Positions 85 to 13,910 of a stretch of DNA of 25,321 nucleotides are shown here, piece after piece. This DNA comes from a virus. The stretch lies in IMG/VR virus record IMGVR_UViG_3300009502_000187, positions 1-25,321 of that record; one strand, given 5' to 3'. Numbering within the stretch: position 1 is the stretch's first letter; each line of letters starts with the position of its first letter. The notes below the pieces were generated by a model that searched no databases, was not told the origin of the DNA, and saw nothing but the letters and a program-made list of their open reading frames with translations. Made by a program: the position numbers and the translations under genes.

Positions 85-606
85 TTAAATTACAATATCA
101 CTTGCTACTTCGTTGCCCCATACATCCCATCCTTCTGTTTTTTGTCTTGCGAATAGTTCTATTCTATTCCCATTAGGATAAATTGTATTTATGATGTCCC
201 GAAAAACTTGTGGCTTCTTGCTGTGTTCCGTTCTTGCTTCCGAAACTACACTATCAAATAATTTTCTAACTTGTGGGGTGCATTTCCCTTTTGTGGCTAT
301 TAACAATAATTCGTGTCTGACAGAATTATAATGACCCATATTATGACTAATTTTATCCCATACGAAACTGCTTTTATATTTGAACCCCCACGCTTTTATA
401 ATTTCAAATACTACCTCTAACAATGGTGAAGTTACCCAGATAAATAATACGGCATCTTTTTCGGTTAATTCTTTTATAGGCAATTCGCACAACTGCTTGA
501 TACTCATTGTTGAATAGTGCTTGATACAACCTCCCAGCAATTTTGTATTCTGTTTGTCATTATAACTCCACGGTGGGTCTGCATATATTATTTGGTATTT
601 TTCCAT
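85..606 (-). CDS. MT-A70 family adenine-specific DNA methyltransferase
   Basis: This 173-residue protein has the MT-A70 catalytic motif DPPW at residues 10-13, preceded by the IIYA strand. It also has the family's conserved segments: TEKDAVLFIWVTSP (about 48-61), WGFKYKSSFVWDK (about 73-85), the RHELLLIATKG strand (about 98-108) and a C-terminal NRIELFARQKTEGWDVWGNE motif that closes the fold. It should transfer a methyl group from S-adenosylmethionine to N6 of adenine in DNA. Orphan enzymes of this kind in phages usually protect phage DNA from host restriction, and no restriction partner is visible here. Its start and upstream bases lie in a 38-bp repeat shared with the Cys-repeat gene at 2313. 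The length is normal for small phage members. Confidence 0.92.
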   Translation of the reverse strand: MEKYQIIYADPPWSYNDKQNTKLLGGCIKHYSTMSIKQLCELPIKELTEKDAVLFIWVTSPLLEVVFEIIKAWGFKYKSSFVWDKISHNMGHYNSVRHELLLIATKGKCTPQVRKLFDSVVSEARTEHSKKPQVFRDIINTIYPNGNRIELFARQKTEGWDVWGNEVASDIVI

Positions 607-2514: not shown

Positions 2515-2739
2515 TTATAATAATTTAGGCTGGATATCGTCTGGTTTCCAGTCAAAATATACTAATCTGTATTTCCCCCGGCCGAACTTATCATCCATAT
2601 ATTCAGAATATCCTGTTGGTTTTTTACCATTCAAAGACATATATTCTGAACCACATTTAACTATCTGAGCCGGGTAATAGTATTTTTCAGGAAACGCTAT
2701 TTGTCCGTTAAATATTGTTTTAACTTGGATTGGCTTCAT
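2515..2739 (-). CDS. 74-residue hypothetical protein
   Basis: The protein begins MKPIQVKTIFNGQIAFPEKYYYPAQIVKCG and is rich in Tyr, Lys and Asp, ending with the beta-like run YRLVYFDWKPDDIQPKLL. Its start overlaps the 3' end of the NinB-like gene by 20 bases, which points to coupled translation within the leftward operon. There are no membrane segments or known motifs. The predominantly beta composition is all that can be said of structure. The competing plus-strand frame at 2450-2668 is rejected as antisense. Confidence 0.65.
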   Translation of the reverse strand: MKPIQVKTIFNGQIAFPEKYYYPAQIVKCGSEYMSLNGKKPTGYSEYMDDKFGRGKYRLVYFDWKPDDIQPKLL

Positions 2740-3061
2740 AGAAATTAAGTTGTTCTTCCGAAGGCCATTCTACGTGTATTCCTATTTTAGCAAGGTTACG
2801 ATTAAACTCATCATAGATATCAGACATTTCTTTAGTGGTTAGTTCGGATGTACTGCTTTTAAGATATTTTGCTTTGCCTAATGCTCGGAATACTGACTTA
2901 ACCGATTCGGCAGAATTATCAACTTCATTAACTGCTTGTAAAAGAACCCTTTGGGAGATACCGGCAAAGGTTAGTTCCTGTGCCAACATCTCACACCAGA
3001 GGTGCAAACTACGATTCTGCTGGTTAGTTCTTTTAGAAGTTTGGTTCTCCGTACTGTCCAT
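2720..3061 (-). CDS. NinB/lambda Orf-like recombination protein (tentative)
   Basis: This 113-residue protein has an N-terminal RTNQQNRSLHLWCEMLAQEL segment and, towards the end, SSTSELTTKEMSDIYDEFNRNLAKIGIHVEWPS. The first motif resembles the conserved QNRxxW core of NinB/Orf proteins, which bind single-stranded DNA and help load recombinases. The second, ELTTKEMxxxYDxxNRxL, recurs in many phage proteins found beside ssDNA-binding and annealing genes. It overlaps the zinc-ribbon gene by 29 bases and is followed by an overlapping small gene. The context (zinc ribbon, HNH, methyltransferase) fits DNA metabolism. Exact family membership is uncertain. Confidence 0.55.
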   Translation of the reverse strand: MDSTENQTSKRTNQQNRSLHLWCEMLAQELTFAGISQRVLLQAVNEVDNSAESVKSVFRALGKAKYLKSSTSELTTKEMSDIYDEFNRNLAKIGIHVEWPSEEQLNFYEANPS

Positions 3062-3492: not shown

Positions 3493-3729
3493 TTAGTTTT
3501 TGTTTAATTTTTCTAATTTCTCGGCAATATAATCTCTTGCTCCTTGAACATATTGTATTTGTGCGTGTTTTTCTGCTAAATCCATCAGTTCTTGCTTATC
3601 CATATCATCAATCCATTGGTCATATAAGTTATCGCAGTTATCTTTGGTTACTGGGACTCCACCATACTCATTCCCTTCAATAAGAATTTCCATTAACCTA
3701 TCTTCAAATGTTTTTATTTTAACTGTCAT
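3493..3729 (-). CDS. 78-residue hypothetical protein behind a structured leader
   Basis: The protein (MTVKIKTFEDRLMEILIEGNEYGG, then DNLYDQWIDDMDKQELMDLAEKHAQIQYV) is acidic and helical, without known motifs. Its ATG lies 7 bases from the end of a long RNA stem (3737-3826). The purine-rich AAAGGG that could act as its ribosome-binding site forms the 3' edge of that stem, so translation may be controlled by the fold. It is followed after 1 base by the zinc-ribbon gene, so any control could reach the whole downstream DNA-metabolism block. The function is unknown. Confidence 0.75.
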   Translation of the reverse strand: MTVKIKTFEDRLMEILIEGNEYGGVPVTKDNCDNLYDQWIDDMDKQELMDLAEKHAQIQYVQGARDYIAEKLEKLNKN

Positions 3730-3736
3730 ATATTTT

Positions 3737-3832
3737 CCCTTTCAGATCCATTCTGCCGATGTCCTCATACCTTGACCCGTTACGAGTGGTAGTATAAGTT
3801 TCCCGAGCAGAACAGATGTGGAAGGGCGTAAC
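3737..3832 (-). ncRNA. Structured RNA: 20-position stem, upper stem and apical pseudoknot
   Basis: Read leftward, 3826-3807 pairs with 3756-3737 in 18 of 20 positions (two of them G-U, two mismatches). Above an asymmetric internal loop, CTTATAC (3798-3792) pairs with GTATGAG (3770-3764). The apical loop exposes CGTAAC (3784-3779), which is complementary to GTTACG (3832-3827) just 5' of the long stem and would form a 6-bp pseudoknot. The G-U pairs become A-C mismatches on the other strand, so the minus strand is the likely transcript. The segment looks richer in G and C than its neighbours. It ends 7 bases before the ATG at 3729. It could be a riboswitch-like leader, a protein-binding site or a processed small RNA. 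It matches no family I recognise. Confidence 0.7.
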
Positions 3833-3844
3833 TGTTAATAATTA

Positions 3845-4045
3845 TTAATAAGGAGCGTCGCCGTTCTCTTTCCAAGATTCAAATAAATCATTTTCGGTGA
3901 TACTCATATCCTTACTTTCTAATCTTTCTATTAAGTTCTCTGTTTTAATGGCTTCGTTAAACTCTGCTTCTGATAACTTACCTTCTTGAAAGAATTTTAC
4001 TATTTGATTTTTTCTTTCTAATTTTTGTTTTAATTCTTTTGTCAT
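3845..4045 (-). CDS. 66-residue charged coiled-coil-like protein
   Basis: The protein is almost entirely charged and helical: MTKELKQKLERKNQIVKFFQ, then LSEAEFNEAIKTENLIERLE, with heptad-like Leu and Ile spacing. It is the first gene after the leftward promoter at 4094-4123, with an untranslated leader of about 40 bases. The structured RNA element follows it within the same transcript. An early regulatory or host-interaction role would fit its size and place, but nothing in the sequence proves it. Confidence 0.7.
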   Translation of the reverse strand: MTKELKQKLERKNQIVKFFQEGKLSEAEFNEAIKTENLIERLESKDMSITENDLFESWKENGDAPY

Positions 4046-4093
4046 TTTATTTTATAATATTTAATTTTATTTTGTTTAGCCGACCTTTAGTAT

Positions 4094-4123
4094 ATTGTAC
4101 TTTATAGTATAGACACCTGTCAA
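4094..4123 (-). promoter_or_regulatory. Leftward sigma70 promoter with palindromic -35 region
   Basis: On the minus strand TTGACA (4123-4118) and TACAAT (4099-4094) are 18 bases apart. The -35 lies in GACAGGTGTC (4121-4112), a palindrome with a GG centre. The 14 bases at 4112-4125 are identical to 4672-4685 at the other leftward promoter. Transcription would start near 4087 and read the 66-residue gene and the rest of the cluster. Confidence 0.65.
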
Positions 4124-4130
4124 TAACAGT

Positions 4131-4649
4131 TTATCCCCTGTTGTCCTTTTCCATTTTGTTGCGAGTCATTTCTAAATTCAAATGACATTTATGACAAAGA
4201 GTAATCATCTTATTCAAGTTTTTTCTATCACACTCATCTACACTTAAATAAGGAGCTTTACCATCAAATTCTTCATCGTTGTGGTGAACATCAAATCTTC
4301 TTTCTCCTACTTTCCATACCTTTCCACAGATTTGACAAGTATGGTTATCTCTAATTCTGATAATTTCTCTTAATCTTTCTCTTGTACAACTGGCCATACC
4401 TGTTAGCGCAGTTATATTCACTCCGGTGAGCAAATATTTTCCACCGATATTTAAGAGATAATTATTAATTTTTAAATTATCTTGAAACTTTTTTAATTCT
4501 TCTTTTTTAATAATAGATTCAGGTATAGGTGATTTGTATCCACTATATATTTGATGAACTCTTTGCCTAGTAATACCTAAAAATCTACCGACTTCGGCAT
4601 AAGTATATTTTTTGTTTATTAAATTTATAATTATTGTTTTTCTTTCCAT
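4131..4649 (-). CDS. HTH-HNH protein
   Basis: This 172-residue protein joins two domains. Residues 14-40 form a helix-turn-helix (YAEVGRFLGITRQRVHQIYSG), like the sigma-factor or resolvase-type domains in phage HNH proteins. Residues 90-165 form an HNH domain with Cys105/Cys108, the catalytic VHHNDE at 121-126 and Cys152/Cys155 with His156. The linker is basic. It is expressed from a promoter whose -10 box ends only 5 bases before the ATG, so the mRNA should be leaderless or nearly so. It may be a DNA nickase or homing-type nuclease. The HTH could also bind the palindrome in its own promoter, but that is only an inference. Confidence 0.85.
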   Translation of the reverse strand: MERKTIIINLINKKYTYAEVGRFLGITRQRVHQIYSGYKSPIPESIIKKEELKKFQDNLKINNYLLNIGGKYLLTGVNITALTGMASCTRERLREIIRIRDNHTCQICGKVWKVGERRFDVHHNDEEFDGKAPYLSVDECDRKNLNKMITLCHKCHLNLEMTRNKMEKDNRG

Positions 4650-4683: not shown

Positions 4684-4716
4684 TAGTCTAAAAAACGAAT
4701 GGGGGATAACTCACTA

Positions 4717-4745
4717 TTGCATTACTTTTATGGTCATTGTAAAAT
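4717..4745 (+). promoter_or_regulatory. Rightward sigma70 promoter for the replication genes
   Basis: TTGCAT (4717-4722) and TAAAAT (4740-4745) are 17 bases apart. Transcription would begin near 4752, giving a leader of about 77 bases to the ATG at 4829. It faces away from the leftward promoter at 4655-4683, making this gap the divergent control region. It overlaps the upstream ATG at 4730, which argues against that start. Confidence 0.55.
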
Positions 4746-4762
4746 GTAAATATATTATTAGT

Positions 4763-4808
4763 CTTGTAGATATAGATAAGGGCATCTACTTACAAGGCGG
4801 GTGTCCTT
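4763..4808 (+). promoter_or_regulatory. Possible pseudoknotted leader of the replisome organizer gene
   Basis: GTAGAT (4767-4772) can pair with ATCTAC (4784-4789), and AAGGGCA (4778-4784) can pair with TGTCCTT (4802-4808) with one G-U. The pairs interleave, so they form either an H-type pseudoknot or two alternatives. The element ends 20 bases before the chosen ATG. The stems are short enough to arise by chance. Confidence 0.3.
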
Positions 4809-4828
4809 TTCTTTATCGCAAAAAATAT

Positions 4829-5347
4829 ATGGCGAATCGTAGAATGTTTAGTAAAGAAATAATTGGCAGTGATTCTTTTTTAGACCTGCCGGTATCAAGT
4901 CGGGAATTATATTTCCAACTTGGTATGTATGCCGATGATGATGGTTTCGTTTCCCCTAAAAAAGTAATAAGGATGGTTGGTTCGTCTGACGATGATTTAA
5001 AAATACTTTTGGCGAAAGAATATGTTTTACCTTTTAAAAGTGGCGTGATTGTCATAACCCACTGGAAAGATAATAATTACCTACGGTCTGACAGATATAC
5101 ACCAACGGTACACCAAGATGAGCTTAAATTGGCTCAAACAGATATGGTGTACCAACGGTACACCCAGTATAGGATAGGAAAGGATAGTAAAGAAGAGGAT
5201 AGAGGACTTTCTTCTAAAAAAAAACCTACTTATAGGGGGATGAGTATGCGTAAACAGGGAAACAAATGGTTTTGCCTTCCATTAGAGGGAGGACAATGGT
5301 TAGAGTTTGCCGCCCCAGAAAGTGAAATTGAATGGAAAACAATATGA
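4829..5347 (+). CDS. DnaD-like phage replisome organizer
   Basis: The start at 4829 gives a 172-residue protein beginning MANRRMFSKEIIGSDSFLDL, the usual N-terminus of phage replisome organizers. It continues with LYFQLGMYADDDGFV, the RMVGSSDDDLKILL winged-helix segment and VIVITHWKDNNYLRSDRY. These proteins bind the phage origin and recruit the host helicase. The open frame extends upstream to 4730, but that part is atypical and overlaps the promoter. The C-terminal third is a basic, variable linker plus a short domain (RKQGNKWFCLPLEGGQWLEF). The gene contains iteron-like repeats (5091-5164), as expected if the origin lies inside it. Its TGA overlaps the next gene's ATG at 5344. Confidence 0.82.
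   Translation: MANRRMFSKEIIGSDSFLDLPVSSRELYFQLGMYADDDGFVSPKKVIRMVGSSDDDLKILLAKEYVLPFKSGVIVITHWKDNNYLRSDRYTPTVHQDELKLAQTDMVYQRYTQYRIGKDSKEEDRGLSSKKKPTYRGMSMRKQGNKWFCLPLEGGQWLEFAAPESEIEWKTI
5091..5164. repeat. Two iteron-like repeats, possible replication origin
   Basis: ACAGATAT followed by ACCAACGGTACACC occurs at 5091-5114 and again at 5138-5164, with 2 and 5 bases between the two parts. In the second copy GGTGTACC-AAC-GGTACACC (5146-5164) is a perfect 8-bp inverted repeat. The 14-mer is read in different frames in the two copies (PTVH against YQRYT), so the DNA rather than the protein is conserved. Phage initiators often bind such sites inside their own gene. Confidence 0.55.
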
Positions 5348-5757: not shown

Positions 5758-5955
5758 ATGGCATTTGATTCTAAATATTACTCAGAGAAAAAGCAGAAGT
5801 TAATCTCAAAAGCTAACCAGCTTCAGCAAGATTATTTGCAGGGAGCATTTAGATTCACTGGAGAACTAAATGATATACAGGCCGAATTGCAAACAATAAA
5901 CGAATGGGAGAAGGAAAATTCACCAAAAATAAAAGAAGTTAAACCTCCTAAATAG
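5758..5955 (+). CDS. 65-residue coiled-coil protein with its own promoter and terminator
   Basis: The protein (MAFDSKYYSEKKQKLISKAN, then QLQQDYLQGAFRFTGELNDIQAEL and a lysine-rich, proline-containing tail) is mainly alpha-helical with heptad-like spacing. It has no recognised domain, signal peptide or membrane segment. It stands alone between a perfect consensus promoter and an intrinsic terminator that overlaps its TAG stop, so it is probably made abundantly from a short monocistronic mRNA. Possible roles are an early host-takeover factor, an anti-defence protein or a structural accessory protein. None is supported directly by the sequence. Confidence 0.75.
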   Translation: MAFDSKYYSEKKQKLISKANQLQQDYLQGAFRFTGELNDIQAELQTINEWEKENSPKIKEVKPPK

Positions 5956-5970
5956 AGGTTTTTGTATTTT
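5941..5970 (+). terminator. Intrinsic terminator overlapping a stop codon
   Basis: AAACCTC (5941-5947) pairs with GAGGTTT (5955-5961) around a 7-base loop and is followed by TTGTATTTT. The stem includes the end of the 65-residue gene and its TAG, closing the transcript that begins near 5748. Confidence 0.75.
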
Positions 5971-5971
5971 C

Positions 5972-5997
5972 AAGCGACTTCGGTCGTTTACTTCTTT
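5972..5997 (+). terminator. Second terminator-like hairpin with UUCG tetraloop
   Basis: AAGCGAC (5972-5978) and GTCGTTT (5983-5989) form a 7-bp stem (one G-U) capped by the very stable C(TTCG)G loop. The pyrimidine-rich ACTTCTTT follows. It is in tandem with the terminator at 5941, which suggests strong insulation from the virion operon. Confidence 0.65.
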
Positions 5998-6000
5998 GTA

Positions 6001-6037
6001 TAACCTATATGGTTACAGAAGAGCCACTGTAGTGGCT
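6001..6037 (+). promoter_or_regulatory. Two short hairpins before the virion operon
   Basis: TAACC/GGTTA (6001-6005 with 6011-6015) and AGCCAC/GTGGCT (6022-6027 with 6032-6037, loop TGTA) lie between the tandem terminators and the ATG at 6052. Neither is followed by a T-run. They may protect the 5' end of the operon mRNA or be a processing site. No convincing promoter is visible in this gap. Confidence 0.4.
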
Positions 6038-6051
6038 TGAGAATAAAAATT

Positions 6052-11769: not shown

Positions 11770-12642
11770 GTGACTACAACAGGAACAAATACTTTAGCCT
11801 CGTATGCTTACAGGGCTAAATTCAAATCAGCAACACTTCAGCAAATTTTAAGAAGGAACTTAATTGCAGAAGCTATTTGCGATGCAGATAGAACAGATAG
11901 TTATTTAATCAAAAATCCATATGGTTCTCAGCCAGTAGCTCAGATTACAGCTATTACAGGAACATACACGATTGATGATTACACAATAACAACCGACAGT
12001 TTAACAGTTAATAACGAAATCAAAGTTGCAAACCAAGTTTATGACTTTGAACAAGTGCTGTTGAACTACGATATGTTTGTTAACAGGGTAAACGAGGAAG
12101 CTTATTGCTTCGCTGCAGCAGTTGACCAACTCGTTCTTAATGGGATGGGGTACTCTTGCACAGGAGCTTATACAACTCCAGTCGGAGGTTTTACAACAGC
12201 TTCAAACGTGTTGACAATTATTGCTAACTTGCAATCAAAAGTTGCCGGTTATGAATCGCAATATAAAGACACATTCTTGGTAGTTGAGAACACTGACTTG
12301 CCTGGTATTCAGATTGCACAGGCCACAAATGGATTCGCCTATGCAGACCAAGCATTAACAAACGGATTGGTTAAGAACATAATGGGAACTGACATTTATG
12401 TTACACGAACAGGAACATTCACAAACTCAGCCATTGGAGCAGTATTAACTTCTCCGCAAATGAGTGGATGCAGATTGTTTGGAGTGAAGAATGTGGTTAC
12501 TTATGCTGAACCAAGAGGTGTACAATTTGAGGAAAAGTCAGTATCAGGAAAGACAGGTAAAGAAGTAGTAACTTGGGGTTATGTCGGATATGCGGTATGG
12601 GCAACCAAGGCTGCATTAATAGTAAAAATAACATTAGCTTAA
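11770..12642 (+). CDS. Major capsid (coat) protein
   Basis: This 290-residue protein follows the scaffold candidate. It has the layout of HK97-fold coat proteins: an N-terminal helical arm (TLASYAYRAKFKSATLQQIL), a beta-strand domain (PVAQITAITGTYTIDDYTIT) and a long spine-helix region (VNRVNEEAYCFAAAVDQLVL). The A domain has LVVENTDLPGIQIAQATNGF, and the C-terminus is rich in strands (GYVGYAVWATKAALIVKITL). It should assemble the icosahedral shell. The start is GTG behind a GGCGG motif. Its stop codon lies within a 9-bp stem (AGCTTAATA) of a complex downstream RNA, which may affect mRNA decay or coupling to the next gene. Confidence 0.83.
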   Translation: MTTTGTNTLASYAYRAKFKSATLQQILRRNLIAEAICDADRTDSYLIKNPYGSQPVAQITAITGTYTIDDYTITTDSLTVNNEIKVANQVYDFEQVLLNYDMFVNRVNEEAYCFAAAVDQLVLNGMGYSCTGAYTTPVGGFTTASNVLTIIANLQSKVAGYESQYKDTFLVVENTDLPGIQIAQATNGFAYADQALTNGLVKNIMGTDIYVTRTGTFTNSAIGAVLTSPQMSGCRLFGVKNVVTYAEPRGVQFEEKSVSGKTGKEVVTWGYVGYAVWATKAALIVKITLA

Positions 12643-12744
12643 TATAACTTTCTCCCTTATCGGGAGAATAAGATAACTTATTAAGCTGACTCCCCGCCGG
12701 ATTTGGCGATGATAAGTTATCCTTTCTCCCTGTAAGGCGAAGGG
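12636..12744 (+). promoter_or_regulatory. Multi-hairpin region after the coat gene with competing pairings
   Basis: Visible stems are: AGCTTAATA (12636-12644) with TATTAAGCT (12679-12687); TTCTCCC (12650-12656) with GGGAGAA (12662-12668); GATAACTTAT (12672-12681) with ATAAGTTATC (12712-12721); and CGCC/GGCG (12695-12708) inside the last. CTTTCTCCCT recurs at 12648 and 12722, so GGGAGAA has two possible partners. The 9- and 10-bp stems share bases and compete. No long T-run follows, so this is more likely mRNA protection, processing or partial attenuation than a simple terminator. Confidence 0.6.
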
Positions 12745-12765
12745 CATTAAACTAACTATAATACT

Positions 12766-13002: not shown

Positions 13003-13019
13003 GAAACTTGTGATTCTTT

Positions 13020-13041
13020 CCAGCTCCTTTATGGGAGTTGG
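13020..13041 (+). promoter_or_regulatory. 8-bp hairpin before the 13057 gene
   Basis: CCAGCTCC (13020-13027) pairs with GGAGTTGG (13034-13041) with one G-U around a 6-base loop. GCAAGGATAACAATT follows and contains AAGGAT, a plausible Shine-Dalgarno for the ATG at 13057. It is one of several stems that precede genes in the 11-14 kb region. Confidence 0.5.
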
Positions 13042-13056
13042 GCAAGGATAACAATT

Positions 13057-13845: not shown

Positions 13846-13854
13846 TAAATAATT

Positions 13855-13905
13855 AACCTGTAATTCGTGTGTAGTGCCTTTCTTACAGGTTGGGCATTAC
13901 ACACG
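13855..13905 (+). promoter_or_regulatory. Interleaved 9-bp and 13-bp stems (bistable RNA or pseudoknot)
   Basis: AACCTGTAA (13855-13863) is fully complementary to TTACAGGTT (13883-13891). CGTGTGTAGTGCC (13866-13878) pairs with GGCATTACACACG (13893-13905), with one G-U. The order is a-b-a'-b', with linkers of 2, 4 and 1 bases. Those linkers are too short for both full stems to form together, so the two helices should compete or share a partial pseudoknot. No T-run follows. The element ends 6 bases before an HNH remnant and upstream of the connector gene. Confidence 0.65.
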
Positions 13906-13910
13906 GGTGA

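Follow-up and report, generated by a model that had tools for sequence, protein, structure and literature searches.

An intergenic RNA with two mutually exclusive helices in an uncultured tailed phage, read tentatively as a two-state translation element

The gap upstream of the gene at 3729 in IMG/VR record IMGVR_UViG_3300009502_000187, which is covered in full by the stretch analysed here (25,321 bases, "the window"), contains a structured RNA. On the minus strand (3832-3737) a long hairpin, B, is formed by arms b and b', and a short arm a next to its foot is complementary to a segment a' in its apical loop. The minimum free energy fold of the growing chain changes from an early hairpin A (a:a') to B, and the order a-b-a'-b' is kept in relatives, in gaps of unrelated sequence. 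We tentatively read the element, with somewhat less than even confidence, as a two-state cis-acting mRNA device that would time or couple translation of the gene at 3729; that A would live usefully long in vivo, that translation would respond and in which direction is what we infer from these computations.

Genomic context

The window has a leftward gene cluster opposing a rightward one, the latter with terminase, portal and capsid genes. Besides the genes listed in Table 1, the leftward cluster contains small genes of unknown kind, and Pfam and PHROG searches gave no match for either the upstream 66-aa gene or the downstream 78-aa gene of the element. The first-pass annotation had described the gap of the element as the only sizeable one in this cluster, which overlooks an 85-nt gap at 4046-4130 with a promoter-like site. 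TTGACA/TATAAT-like sites occur at the corresponding place in three related loci (L003, L082 and L104). Gaps or leaders downstream of such promoters in L104 (3375-3560 and 3049-3200) and L082 (3140-3295) begin with long hairpins and are followed by an ATG shortly after their end. Gene starts in the window are A-rich and nearly devoid of Shine-Dalgarno motifs, and its promoters are sigma-70-like. The leftward protein at 1600-2313 opens with long cysteine-rich repeats of CNSC/CDFC/CYSC type, which is unusual in a phage early gene.

Terminase relatives in IMG/VR amounted to 423 matches, of which the best 80 were used. By this protein the nearest named phages are Flavobacterium phages (46% identity), and related loci occur in MAGs labelled Nanoarchaeia, Aenigmatarchaeota, Elusimicrobia and Bacteroidales.

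Table 1. Coordinates of the element, its neighbouring genes and other structured gaps in the window
Feature	Position	Strand	Remarks
MT-A70 gene	85-606		Leftward cluster
NinB-like gene	2720-3061		Leftward cluster
Downstream gene, 78 aa, unknown	3493..3729	-	Initiation region adjoins hairpin B
Arm b' GCAGAATGGATCTGAAAGGG	3737..3756	-	3' arm of hairpin B; ends 7 nt short of AUG
Upper stem 3' arm GGTATGAG	3764..3771	-	Part of hairpin B
Arm a' CGTAAC	3779..3784	-	Apical loop; partner of arm a in hairpin A
Upper stem 5' arm CTTATACT	3791..3798	-	Part of hairpin B
Arm b CCCTTCCACATCTGTTCTGC	3807..3826	-	5' arm of long hairpin B
Arm a GTTACG	3827..3832	-	5' arm of alternative early hairpin A
Upstream gene, 66 aa, unknown	3845..4045	-	Stop codon (3847-3845) 12 nt ahead of arm a
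Sigma-70-like promoter TTGACA-N18-TACAAT (11/12)	4094..4123	-	Upstream of the operon of the element
HNH gene	4131-4649		Leftward cluster
Structured gap after capsid gene	12634..12743	+	Crossing 11-bp helix TTAGCTTAATA / TATTAAGCTGA
Hairpin-only relative, without a'	13003..13056	+	Resembles L172 element
Compact sister element, a-b-X-a'-b'	13853..13908	+	a 13853-13863, b 13864-13877, X 13878-13882, a' 13883-13893, b' 13894-13908

Structure of the element

Read along the minus strand, the gap runs stop, 12 nt, a, b, 22 nt, a', 22 nt, b', 7 nt, ATG, and each 22-nt spacer includes one arm of the upper stem (the 5' arm before a', the 3' arm after it). The main stem described in the first-pass annotation was recovered between 3826-3807 and 3756-3737, where 18 of 20 positions pair, two of them as G-U, as was the upper stem (3798-3791 against 3771-3764). 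The fold of 3715-3850 on this strand has -42.9 kcal/mol, as against -23.5 +/- 3.35 for shuffled versions (z -5.78; none of 200 shuffles was as stable), which places it in the top three of the window's fold peaks. The reported enrichment in G+C is borne out (47.5% in the segment, 36.5% in the window), and so is the lack of a known family: no Rfam 15 covariance model matched the window at its gathering cut-off, nor any of eight related loci, and permissive settings returned unrelated weak matches only. ARAGORN detected no tRNA or tmRNA at the element. The structured RNA upstream of the gene at 3729 is real. A conserved peptide was rejected as an explanation of the gap: all three minus-strand frames contain stops there, and no shared sequence is seen in the matching gaps of two relatives, L007 and L003.

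The complementarity of GTTACG and CGTAAC, previously proposed as an apical-loop pseudoknot, is present, but not as a helix that could accompany the complete stem. Arm a is separated from the stem by 0 nucleotides and its partner a' lies ~27 bp distant, at the far end of the stem; given A-form geometry, this missing linker and this distance imply that a:a' and the full 20-27 bp stem are mutually exclusive within a molecule. The element would therefore not form a classical H-type pseudoknot, in which both helices are present together. Since the complete helices exclude each other, a:a' would be an alternative to b:b', would belong to an incomplete pseudoknot whose lower stem is open, or would join two molecules. 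The evidence fits the first of these, an alternative hairpin that forms earlier. In the element itself the helix has 6 bp, and the same score is reached in 9% of trials with shuffled flank and loop (p ~0.09).

Order of folding during chain growth

Folding during chain growth was followed through equilibrium folds of growing prefixes, which do not represent kinetics. The probability of a:a' in the element is 0.99 at 66 nt, when a' has just been transcribed; within ~10 further nucleotides hairpin A is displaced by the upper stem, after whose emergence the probability is 0. The same succession, in which a:a' is the best fold as soon as a' has emerged and is later replaced by B, was found in the element, L007, L003, L203, L002, the window element at 13853, L230 and L093. 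At the level of equilibrium prefix folding, an early best hairpin thus gives way to a stabler fold that excludes it. L172 differs, as a hairpin further upstream competes there and at none of the steps examined was hairpin A the best fold.

Counterparts in related phages

No DNA homologue of the segment was detected by blastn, local blastn or exact pattern search; the downstream gene had no relative among phages or in IMG/VR, and a profile of the gene that follows it (A3) found none either. Counterparts were for this reason limited to loci reached via the terminase, L007 and L003. L007 is the nearest relative by terminase (85%) among the best 80 of the 423 matches. Its early-operon gap at 1934-2016 places arms CCTTATG and CATAAGG around a 21-bp stem whose sequence is unrelated to the window, ahead of a homologue of window gene 3033 and with NinB next in both phages. 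In L003 the early-operon gap at 4699-4838 has AATGAGTC and GACTCATT around another long stem, again of unrelated sequence; this phage has the HNH gene in common with the window (41%), and its match to gene 3033 is weak (E 0.003). The downstream genes of the three elements may not be orthologous. Hairpin B ends 7 nt from the ATG in the window, 9 in L007 and 10-14 in L003.

Trials of a:a' gave p values of 0.004 in L007 and 0.001 in L003, and for the crossing arm a Fisher combination over these two and the element gave p 5e-5. The relatives support a:a', which is weak in the element alone. Unconstrained duplex energies failed to separate real from shuffled sequences, and helix-density scores were used instead. 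With these, a descriptor scan for a-b-a'-b' over all collected loci gave 28 sites scoring at least 27 (0 in shuffled sequences) and a strict compact scan 21 sites scoring at least 28 (again 0), counts that both include some sites in both orientations or on duplicate contigs. Under a stricter null, in which 5' flanks and loops were swapped among 120 real intergenic hairpins, 9 cases scoring at least 8 were observed where 1.5 were expected. The distance from the end of b' to the AUG in a-b-a'-b' elements is mostly 6-12 nt.

A compact sister family

The window has a second, compact element with this order of arms, at 13853-13908 (TTAACCTGTAA - TTCGTGTGTAGTGC - CTTTC - TTACAGGTTGG - GCATTACACACGGGT), and related versions are present in seven other phages (L230/L012, L172, L175, L093, L002, L203 and L017/L019). 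Helix a has 8-11 bp and helix b 10-19 pairs in this family, with no linker or nearly none, and the spacer X reads CTTTC or CTTTAC. Both crossing helices are kept via paired changes, the letters varying on both sides: the junction pair of helix a, for example, is AT, GC, TA or CG depending on the member. The combined p is 4e-16, and in most relatives an ATG lies 6-10 nt downstream. The hairpin at 13003-13056 resembles the L172 element minus a', which indicates that a' can be lost.

Other structured gaps

In relatives with a gap of 60-200 nt after the capsid gene, all 63 unique gaps are folded, with z below -2 and a median of -7.5 against mononucleotide shuffles; in a few relatives this gap is short instead. 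The RNA (12634-12750, plus strand, in 63 distinct relatives) comprises one hairpin located at the stop, an upper one whose loop is CCCACCGAT-like, and a further, third strand able to re-pair with the first hairpin. A CCACC-like motif occurs in 53 of the 63 gaps and is predicted to be unpaired in 46 of these, as against 16 expected. Re-pairing could be tested in 49 gaps, and in 30 of them the first hairpin has a 3' arm whose additional pairing with downstream sequence surpasses that in all 50 shuffles. This conserved RNA is absent from Rfam and is likely a new family. The lineage thus habitually has alternative pairings between stop and start, and the element at 3832-3737 is a modest case of this. 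A further strong fold on the plus strand, at 5955-6050, follows the gene at 5758-5955 and ends just before an ATG; by eye it resembles a four-way junction with a TATTTTCAAG/CTTGAGAATA closing stem and three hairpins.

Alternative explanations

Because most hairpins in these gaps have no a' arm, the strongest rival is a generic intergenic hairpin (an insulator, an mRNA stabiliser or an RNase III site as in T7), where only B matters and the apical match is incidental; we consider it quite possible, if short of probable. Gaps longer than ~40 nt are commonly filled by hairpins in these phages. The RNase III sites between T7 genes are long hairpins between stop and start codons, and the stem length of the element (~20 bp) agrees with that model, stems of at least 20 bp being predicted to suit the enzyme. 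The two-state reading is further weakened by the modest a:a' of the element itself (6 bp, p 0.09), its life of ~10 nt and the frequent absence of a', so that hairpin B may be the sole essential part. A plain hairpin, however, needs no crossing arm, as the T7 model has none, and this arm recurs at the matching place in L007 and L003 and covaries strongly in the compact sisters. Another rival is a true tertiary structure: a:a' could combine with part of b into a compact pseudoknot, the lower stem being open or the helices side by side, or mediate a kissing dimer. Helix a has ~11 bp, one A-form turn, in many sisters, which could reflect a fixed geometry, and X is short, pyrimidine-rich and similar in sequence across them. 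We nevertheless regard this as improbable, since a and b have no linker while b spans 14-28 bp, which makes an H-type fold impossible with b complete, since helix lengths vary (a 6-14, b 10-28) and since the chain-growth folds alternate.

The arm order resembles the alternatives of an attenuator, and inverted repeats may be DNA sites, so a transcription terminator or attenuator, or a DNA-level recombination or binding site, could be envisaged. The GC-rich stem followed by a U-tract of an intrinsic terminator is not present, however, as the U-tract is absent and a terminator scan found none at the element; moreover, letters vary freely while pairing is kept, and the elements lie between stop and start on the coding strand, which leaves this explanation very improbable. 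HDV-like ribozymes have the arm order P1-P2-P1'-P2', and the element is highly structured and upstream of a gene, as a ligand-binding riboswitch or self-cleaving ribozyme might be. Yet aptamers and ribozymes keep a conserved core, whereas no sequence is conserved among L007, L003 and the window, and no Rfam match was obtained even permissively, apart from the unrelated weak ones; compared with HDV-like ribozymes the stems are also too long and P3/P4 are missing. We give this explanation hardly any credence. An integron attC site and HDV-like, twister, hammerhead or pistol ribozymes were rejected, given the lack of an Rfam match. Of the three roles suggested in the first-pass annotation, a cis-acting structured RNA is the one supported, through the z-score, the lack of an Rfam family, the shared design of L007 and L003 and the covarying sisters; we see no sign of a ribozyme or of a small RNA in its own right.

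Possible mode of action

The sequence AAAGGG, formerly put forward as the ribosome-binding site closed over by the stem, is unlikely to serve as one: 29 of 30 checked starts in the window have no Shine-Dalgarno motif, and no clear one is found in b' of L007 or L003, so a hairpin that sequesters such a motif is not what we see. Initiation in the non-Shine-Dalgarno bacterium Flavobacterium is tuned by structure near the start (PMC6847099). Taken together, starts of this kind and the tuning of initiation by start-proximal structure lead us to propose that the element acts on translation through two states.

In this model the element would be a cis-acting two-state unit of a polycistronic mRNA, filling the gap from the upstream stop (3845) to the next AUG (3729). 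Because a' emerges ahead of b', the short hairpin A would form first; with the emergence of the upper stem and b', the far stabler hairpin B (~-40 kcal/mol) would replace it. With its end 7 nt from the AUG, B reaches into the stretch that a ribosome normally covers at initiation, and it would damp initiation on the finished mRNA. Initiation would accordingly be open while A lasts or B forms slowly, and damped with B complete. Arm a is so close to the upstream stop that a ribosome terminating there would mask it. Either the lifetime of A or a ribosome on this stop could set the duration or strength of downstream translation.

Relation to known systems and implications

Few examples are known of transient folds that time translation, all of them studied by hand (MS2, hok and aapA). 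In the maturation-gene leader of MS2 a transient fold is followed by a stable one that shuts initiation, which confines translation to young RNA (PMC6733600). The proposed element is alike in that a metastable fold yields to a stable one, but the MS2 leader is a cloverleaf in an RNA phage, whereas the unit that we describe, from sequence alone, has the order a-b-a'-b' without linkers and lies between genes of a tailed phage that has a DNA genome and A-rich starts. Successive hairpins also yield to a stable fold during transcription of the hok and aapA mRNAs (PMC6733600); these are toxin-antitoxin mRNAs that are kept inert, whereas a and a' are located in a phage intergenic gap, upstream of a start region. 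Translational coupling by RNA unfolding, for example of f1 genes VII and IX (PMC12548453), has in common with the element a hairpin that ends just upstream of the next gene, near the upstream stop. There the upstream ribosome enters the hairpin, whereas here the hairpin lies past the stop codon and only arm a would be reachable.

A broader proposal, which we think rather unlikely to hold, is that an uncultured tailed-phage lineage reuses a sequence-free stop-a-b-X-a'-b'-AUG design, in which linkerless exclusive helices would provide a folding timer for each downstream gene under non-Shine-Dalgarno initiation. Structured intergenic gaps that Rfam does not list are frequent in this phage group. 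If the family is true, with pairing order kept and letters free, selection would act on the folding order itself, and its signature would make such timers searchable in phage genomes, whose operons tune dozens of genes from few promoters.
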